Shown: one piece after another, positions 12,229 through 12,372 of the stretch
Layout: every line of letters begins with the position of its first letter
Numbering within the stretch: the first letter of the stretch is position 1
Made by a program: the position numbers and the translations under genes
Source of the DNA: Candidatus Woesearchaeota archaeon
GTDB lineage: Archaea; Nanobdellota; Nanobdellia; Woesearchaeales; 21-14-0-10-32-9
Length of the DNA: 37,674 nucleotides
Direction: 5' to 3'
Assembly (NCBI GenBank): GCA_021735165.1
Contig: JAIPHP010000013.1
Coordinates: forward strand, 1 to 37,674
Notes under the pieces: generated by a model
Databases searched by the model: none
The model's input: the letters and a program-made list of their open reading frames with translations, nothing else
What the model was told of the DNA's origin: nothing

Positions 12229-12372
12229 TGGGCCCACCCGGATTTTCGAAACTTTACTGTGTTTGAGCACAAGTGCGAAACACACTTGCGTGTCAACTGA
12301 GCGTAACCAGTTGCTCGAACCGGGGATCCTCTCCGTGTAAGGGAGACATCATAGCCGCTAGACCATGGGCCC
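12229..12372 (-). tRNA. tRNA-Val (UAC) with an intron in the T-loop
   Basis: The acceptor stem GGGCCCA/TGGGCCC pairs perfectly, with discriminator A and no encoded CCA. The anticodon stem TCTCC/GGAGA encloses loop CTTACAC, giving anticodon UAC (Val). The T-stem CCCGG/CCGGG is interrupted by 71 extra bases after TTCGAG. Exons are 12372-12314 and 12242-12229; the spliced product is 73 nt with T-loop TTCGAGT, so the intron is at canonical position 59/60. TTCG can pair with CGAA as a 4-bp central helix between bulges AGC and AAT, the archaeal splicing-endonuclease motif. A TATA box lies about 30 bp upstream. The D-arm resembles other archaeal tRNA-Val sequences. The exact splice points are inferred. 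Confidence 0.88.
12243..12313 (-). other. 71-nt tRNA intron with two hairpins
   Basis: Inside the intron are CAACTG/CAGTTG (6 bp, 8-nt loop) and CAAGTGTG/CGCACTTG (8 bp with one G-U pair, TTT loop). An alternative inner helix AACT/AGTT would complete the bulge-helix-bulge but competes with the first hairpin. No protein or box C/D RNA is encoded. Confidence 0.7.

Follow-up and report, generated by a model that had tools for sequence, protein, structure and literature searches.

The tRNA-Val(UAC) gene of Candidatus Woesearchaeota archaeon (GCA_021735165.1, contig JAIPHP010000013.1) that lies on the minus strand, at 12372-12229, of the window (the whole stretch of DNA analysed, positions 1-37,674 of the contig) is split after base 59, within the T-loop, by an insert of 71 nt. 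This gene likely encodes a functional tRNA with a T-loop intron that is spliced by the endonuclease EndA and that belongs to a dispersed, apparently mobile family of hairpin elements. Splicing, the role of EndA as the cutter and movement are inferred, as there are no RNA data and a mobilising enzyme has not been shown. In the proposed model, EndA would cut the intron at a bulge-helix-bulge (BHB) formed by the T-loop UUCG of the tRNA with CGAA near the 3' end of the intron, and a ligase would then join the exons. The intron itself would be a recent insertion of a structured element (hairpin P1, linker, hairpin P2) that occurs within introns of tRNAs and next to tRNA genes, both across a DPANN order and in certain Nanohaloarchaea.

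The interrupted gene and its uninterrupted relatives

The 5' exon (12314-12372, minus strand, 59 nt) runs from G1 to G59, contains the anticodon UAC and matches the query at 59/59 bases, while the 3' exon (12229-12242, minus strand, 14 nt), assigned from the sequence and from relatives, comprises U60, the T-stem strand CCGGG, the acceptor strand and the discriminator A. Between them lies the intron (12243-12313, minus strand), which occupies position 59/60, a known site of archaeal BHB tRNA introns (PMC4090602), and which is missing from the same tRNA in relatives. Removal of 12313-12243 yields a 73-nt tRNA-Val(UAC) with an ARAGORN score of 120.9, and in a control only 2 of 300 random places allowed an excision that left a tRNA spanning the junction. 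The membership test for an archaeal BHB tRNA intron that excision restores a complete tRNA is met. In its interrupted state the gene escapes detection: ARAGORN calls no tRNA in the window, and the Rfam model RF00005 leaves the gene below the cut-off. Introns of this kind account for tRNA finders missing essential tRNAs in these genomes. The initial annotation had proposed a 71-nt intron at 59/60 of a tRNA-Val that standard searches may miss. Both claims held, with the strand, which had not been given, added here; the interrupted gene is real, splicing itself being inferred.

The spliced sequence is found uninterrupted in a genome of the same family (G004) at 99% identity (72/73 bases), and at 95% in both a genome of the same genus (G001) and another of the same family (G007). 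In the window's own genome, only tRNA bases 1-59 match as one piece. Since a same-family tRNA without the insert agrees at 72/73 bases and the insert is likewise missing from a relative in the same genus, the gain of the intron is recent and lineage-specific. Whether another Val(UAC) gene exists had been left as a check by the initial annotation; none was found by DNA search and with a tRNA model in the 98%-complete assembly, the tRNA set of which was read from searches only. The genome also holds a Val(GAC) gene without an intron, and GTA is the commonest Val codon (138/308) in eight large reading frames of the window. As side observations on this tRNA set, many isoacceptors remain undetected by the tRNA model despite the 98%-complete assembly, suggesting that further oddly interrupted tRNAs may be present, and two tRNA-Tyr(GTA) genes with similar introns (L010 on C16 and L016 on C26) occur in a set that is otherwise single-copy.

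The predicted splicing structure and its compensating changes

In the predicted splicing structure, UUCG of the tRNA (T54-G57; 12316-12319, minus strand) pairs with CGAA of the intron (12248-12245, minus strand) to form the central 4-bp helix, both strands of which covary across T-loop introns. The 5' bulge AG^C (12313-12315, minus strand) places the predicted 5' cut between 12314 and 12313, a position supported by the fold and inferred from the BHB rule and the intact relatives. The 3' bulge AA^U (12242-12244, minus strand) places the predicted 3' cut between 12243 and 12242, as indicated by the fold and by comparison with other T-loop introns, nearly all of which have AG^U here. In its free fold the pre-tRNA is more stable than 200/200 shuffles (z = -3.2), and the BHB form (T-stem, AAU bulge, UUCG/CGAA, AGC bulge and inner AACU/AGUU) reaches -55.6 kcal/mol versus -57.3 for the free minimum, i.e., it lies 1.7 kcal/mol above it. 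The membership test of two 3-nt bulges on opposite strands with a 4-bp helix between them is met, and the AGC and AAT bulges around TTCG/CGAA that had been read in the initial annotation held. An extra U faces the 5' bulge, and the inner helix of the window's intron is short (-1.3 kcal/mol) and weaker than that of most related introns.

The presence of a splicing endonuclease in the genome, another membership test of an archaeal BHB intron, is also met. One EndA is recognised, a single-unit protein on contig C6 with both domains (PF01974 and PF02778), and the nearest solved chains by sequence are the EndA proteins of Nanoarchaeum equitans and Methanocaldococcus jannaschii. A single alpha-type EndA, as inferred from sequence alone, suggests an alpha4 enzyme. 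The alpha4 EndA has been reported to cut canonical bulge-helix-bulges only (PMC4033280), and with an enzyme of this type and the extra U opposite the 5' bulge, efficient cutting is therefore likely, but not certain.

The splicing helix is maintained by compensating changes, which meets a further membership test of archaeal BHB introns. T-loop introns end in YGRA-AG^U almost without exception (AA^U in the window), and the first letter of this 3' end tracks base 57 of the tRNA, G going with C in 10 introns and A with U in 27, with L105 as the sole exception; L135, with its junction corrected, obeys the rule as well. Moreover, the 5' and 3' ends pair better within their own intron than when swapped between introns (-4.77 vs -3.57 kcal/mol, 0/5000 permutations). 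The 5' strand of P1 is at the same time the strand that lies immediately within the 5' bulge, and it pairs better with the 3' end of its own intron than with those of other introns; P1 and the inner splicing helix are therefore alternative partners. The T-loop letters UUCRA are common to nearly all tRNAs. We infer that the T-loop is favoured because these letters let one intron 3' end (YGAAAG) form the splicing helix almost anywhere, and which suggests why the T-loop, hardly differing between tRNAs, could serve as a landing site in all of them.

A rival explanation is that a mobile insertion has turned the gene into a pseudogene, GUA being read by another tRNA that was missed. In its favour, the insertion is recent and lineage-specific, and a 98%-complete assembly could omit a second gene. 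However, the exons are intact, at 72/73 bases as in G004, the predicted bulge-helix-bulge forms, no second Val(UAC) gene was found while GTA is the commonest Val codon, and dozens of other tRNAs have introns of like design whose splice helix is preserved by compensating changes. This makes the pseudogene very unlikely. Removal of the intron at a bulge-helix-bulge, as first proposed, remains inferred and is supported by the intact exons, by the relatives, by the failure to find a second gene in the 98%-complete assembly and by another 36 T-loop introns that are built alike and have a covarying helix.

The conserved hairpin element and its copies

The intron of the window opens exactly at a conserved core (12286-12313, minus strand; model R1, 51 bits, E 2.4e-7), which consists of the P1 hairpin CAACUG-GUUACGCU-CAGUUG and the linker ACACGCAA. 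This is followed by a second hairpin, P2 (UGUGUUU/AAACACA, 12258-12284, minus strand), with which an alternative hairpin (CGCAAGUGUG/CGCACUUGUG) competes in the minimum-energy fold. Across copies the core consensus is a 6-bp P1, the loop GUUACGCU and then RYACGCAA. The covariation of P1 is shown by two-sided changes at 4 of 6 pairs, with 27 such cells versus 4.4 expected, a number reached by 0 of 500 shuffles, and sliding the pairing partner abolishes the signal. P2 starts about one base after the core in many copies; it is a variable second stem that keeps its place and differs in sequence in most copies (e.g., GUGGGUUU/AAGCCCAC, GUCCGGC/GCCGGAC and GGACGGUU/AACCGUCC), and it individually passes a 5% shuffle test in 43% of them. 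The T-loop intron of the Val(GAC) gene of G016, a genome of the same order and another family, opens with nearly identical 28 letters. The initial annotation had seen two hairpins in the insert and had called it rigid and folded. This view is corrected, since the insert is more than a rigid filler: an RNA element that is both conserved and dispersed forms its beginning. No Rfam family matches this element other than at chance level, whether the gathering threshold or a permissive one is applied, and no description of it was found in the literature searched.

In a second rival explanation, the insert would be a ribozyme that splices or cleaves itself, with EndA unnecessary. The conserved letters of loop and linker and the covarying hairpin do resemble structured, perhaps catalytic, RNA. 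However, the insert has only 71 nt, it matches no ribozyme, group I or group II model of Rfam, its ends are typical of BHB introns and the same element also occurs outside introns, which leaves this explanation very improbable. Group I introns occur in archaeal genes, with Woesearchaeota mentioned (PMC6125680); a group I or II intron was rejected here, as no catalytic core was recognised by the Rfam covariance models, the insert is far too short for group I and the ends are those of a BHB intron.

The dispersal of the element is shown by several searches. In a pattern search, 58 of the order's 288 genomes contain the motif, with up to 15 per genome, and a reversed control pattern gives zero among the listed genomes of the order. 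The covariance model finds the element in 42 of 371 genomes of the phylum, every one in this order. A scan of 85,000 prokaryote species returned 93 stretches, and 121 distinct copies were fetched, in both cases nearly all from Woesearchaeota, Nanoarchaeota and Nanohaloarchaea. The viral contigs and plasmids searched hold no copies. Bacterial pattern matches (in E. coli, Paraglaciecola, a betaproteobacterium and others) were rejected as chance, the 5' strand of P1 being missing, and records titled 'Methanosarcinales' were rejected as hosts because their match positions are identical to those of G140, a genome of this order, so that the title looks wrong.

The location counts refer to the 121 fetched copies and are not an unbiased census. 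T-loop introns account for at least 37 of them (37-38), in about 12 isotypes, and anticodon-loop introns for about 8. In another 17 cases an intact tRNA follows closely downstream of the copy, and all but one of these 17 copies come after a repeat of that tRNA's start; 5 copies lie at tRNA 3' ends or antisense; the remainder are elsewhere, including within a long multi-hairpin repeat.

Further observations concern the window's own genome. A second copy (L064, G000:C1:75971-75998) lies within the anticodon-loop intron of tRNA-Gln(TTG), with a degenerate tRNA start carrying another hairpin upstream. A third (L063, G000:C14:12559-12586) follows a degenerate, tRNA-like start (GGGTCTGTAGC) and precedes tRNA-Arg(TCT). 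The tRNA-Arg(GCG) gene (L026, G000:C1:13687-13744) has an 88-nt T-loop intron with the 3' end UGAA-AG^U and no P1 core, and the genome therefore has at least two T-loop introns. Beyond this genome, a related hairpin with another loop (CAGCTT-CTTGCT-AAGCTG, then GCACGCA) occurs in or beside the same tRNAs (L076, L105, L109, L143), and a third intron-starting hairpin (AGATTTTT...AAAAATCT, then RTAAAA) is found in a T-loop intron (G040), in an anticodon intron and upstream of tRNA-Gln (L044, L028, L064). A few copies hint at an H-type pseudoknot between the P2 loop and a downstream strand, which is no more than a suspicion. A longer multi-hairpin repeat carries P1 and P2 midway (L170, L102, L103, L115, L168, L083), with many copies per genome and some at contig ends; in L170 its ends are the inverted repeats GTAAGTAAAAA...TTTTTACTTAC. 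In G179, two tandem copies precede the intact tRNA-His, and the first 20 bases of this tRNA come after each of them (L222, G179:C7:290507-290620), and three more regular copies lie 118 bases apart at C7:321570.

Possible spread and relation to known systems

Within a single genome, the introns of different tRNA genes sometimes resemble each other much more closely than the exons do. Those of two tRNA genes of G185 are 94% identical (exons 59%), those of Gly and Val in G016 84% (exons 69%) and those of Leu and Ser in G140 86% (exons 56%); among the closest within-genome pairs of these three genomes overall, introns are 84-94% and exons 50-69% identical. These pairs fulfil the criterion for transposed introns of the Thermoproteales type, namely that different tRNAs of a genome carry introns that are nearly identical. 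Outside introns, many copies are flanked by direct repeats of 12-73 nt, e.g., a 56-nt copy bordered by a 17-bp repeat (L156), a 45-bp repeat at a gene start (L155) and a 20-bp repeat at tRNA-His (L087); repeats of 12 or more were present at 5 of 300 random places. Around the introns themselves, direct repeats are not above chance. The non-intron copies may thus represent insertion with target duplication, the neighbouring gene having survived as its end was duplicated, and the introns, being without direct repeats, possibly do not share one mechanism with the upstream copies. A reverse transcriptase is absent from 12 and a Y1 transposase from 7 of 15 element-bearing genomes, and both were rejected as obvious mobilisers because they are missing in many multi-copy genomes, including the single-contig G020. 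The window's genome does contain a 620-aa reverse transcriptase reading frame (L262, G000:C20:10331-10948).

A third rival, which remains possible, is that the introns sharing the hairpin are ordinary EndA introns whose variety arose through descent and convergence, or else through recombination of DNA from one tRNA gene to another, with no transposing element involved. Similar introns in different tRNAs of Thermoproteales have been ascribed to a DNA-level process (PMC4090602), and T-loops are alike enough for gene conversion. However, copies occur outside tRNAs, as the 56-nt L156 with its 17-bp repeat, and at the starts of protein genes, and the window's intron is missing from its closest relatives. 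Within the preferred reading of a mobile element family, the data do not discriminate between autonomous spread, spread with the help of a host enzyme, and spread through recombination and reverse splicing at the RNA level. A bolder reading, slightly less likely than not, is that of an undescribed class of very small mobile RNA-structured elements (about 56-150 nt, with the P1 loop GUUACGCU, the RYACGCAA linker and a variable P2) spreading in DPANN with a preference for tRNA genes, in which T-loop and anticodon-loop copies would become EndA-removable introns and others would leave long direct repeats. If this were true, it is from the element that these archaea would obtain their new tRNA introns. 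The gain of archaeal tRNA introns is an open question, for which the element offers a concrete case of possible spread; with a recognisable 5'-end sequence on many young introns and empty sites in close relatives, gain can be traced and tested.

Short, dispersed and hairpin-forming, with some copies beside direct repeats, the element resembles MITE-, REP- or SINE-like repeats. In contrast to these, its copies double as EndA-type introns, its short copies have no terminal inverted repeats, its direct repeats vary in length and it comes without a known enzyme. With the non-canonical archaeal BHB introns at 59/60, the window's intron shares the position, the 3-4-3 bulge-helix-bulge, the presence of EndA and the length range, but it opens with a conserved covarying two-hairpin element common to many tRNAs and genomes, and its own EndA is of the single alpha rather than the alpha-beta type. 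The transposed tRNA introns of Thermoproteales (Fujishima et al., 2010, as cited in PMC4090602 and PMC4033280) are alike in that near-identical introns occur across different tRNAs of one genome, whereas the element described here belongs to a different phylum, has a conserved RNA core that covaries, prefers the T-loop and has copies outside introns beside direct repeats.
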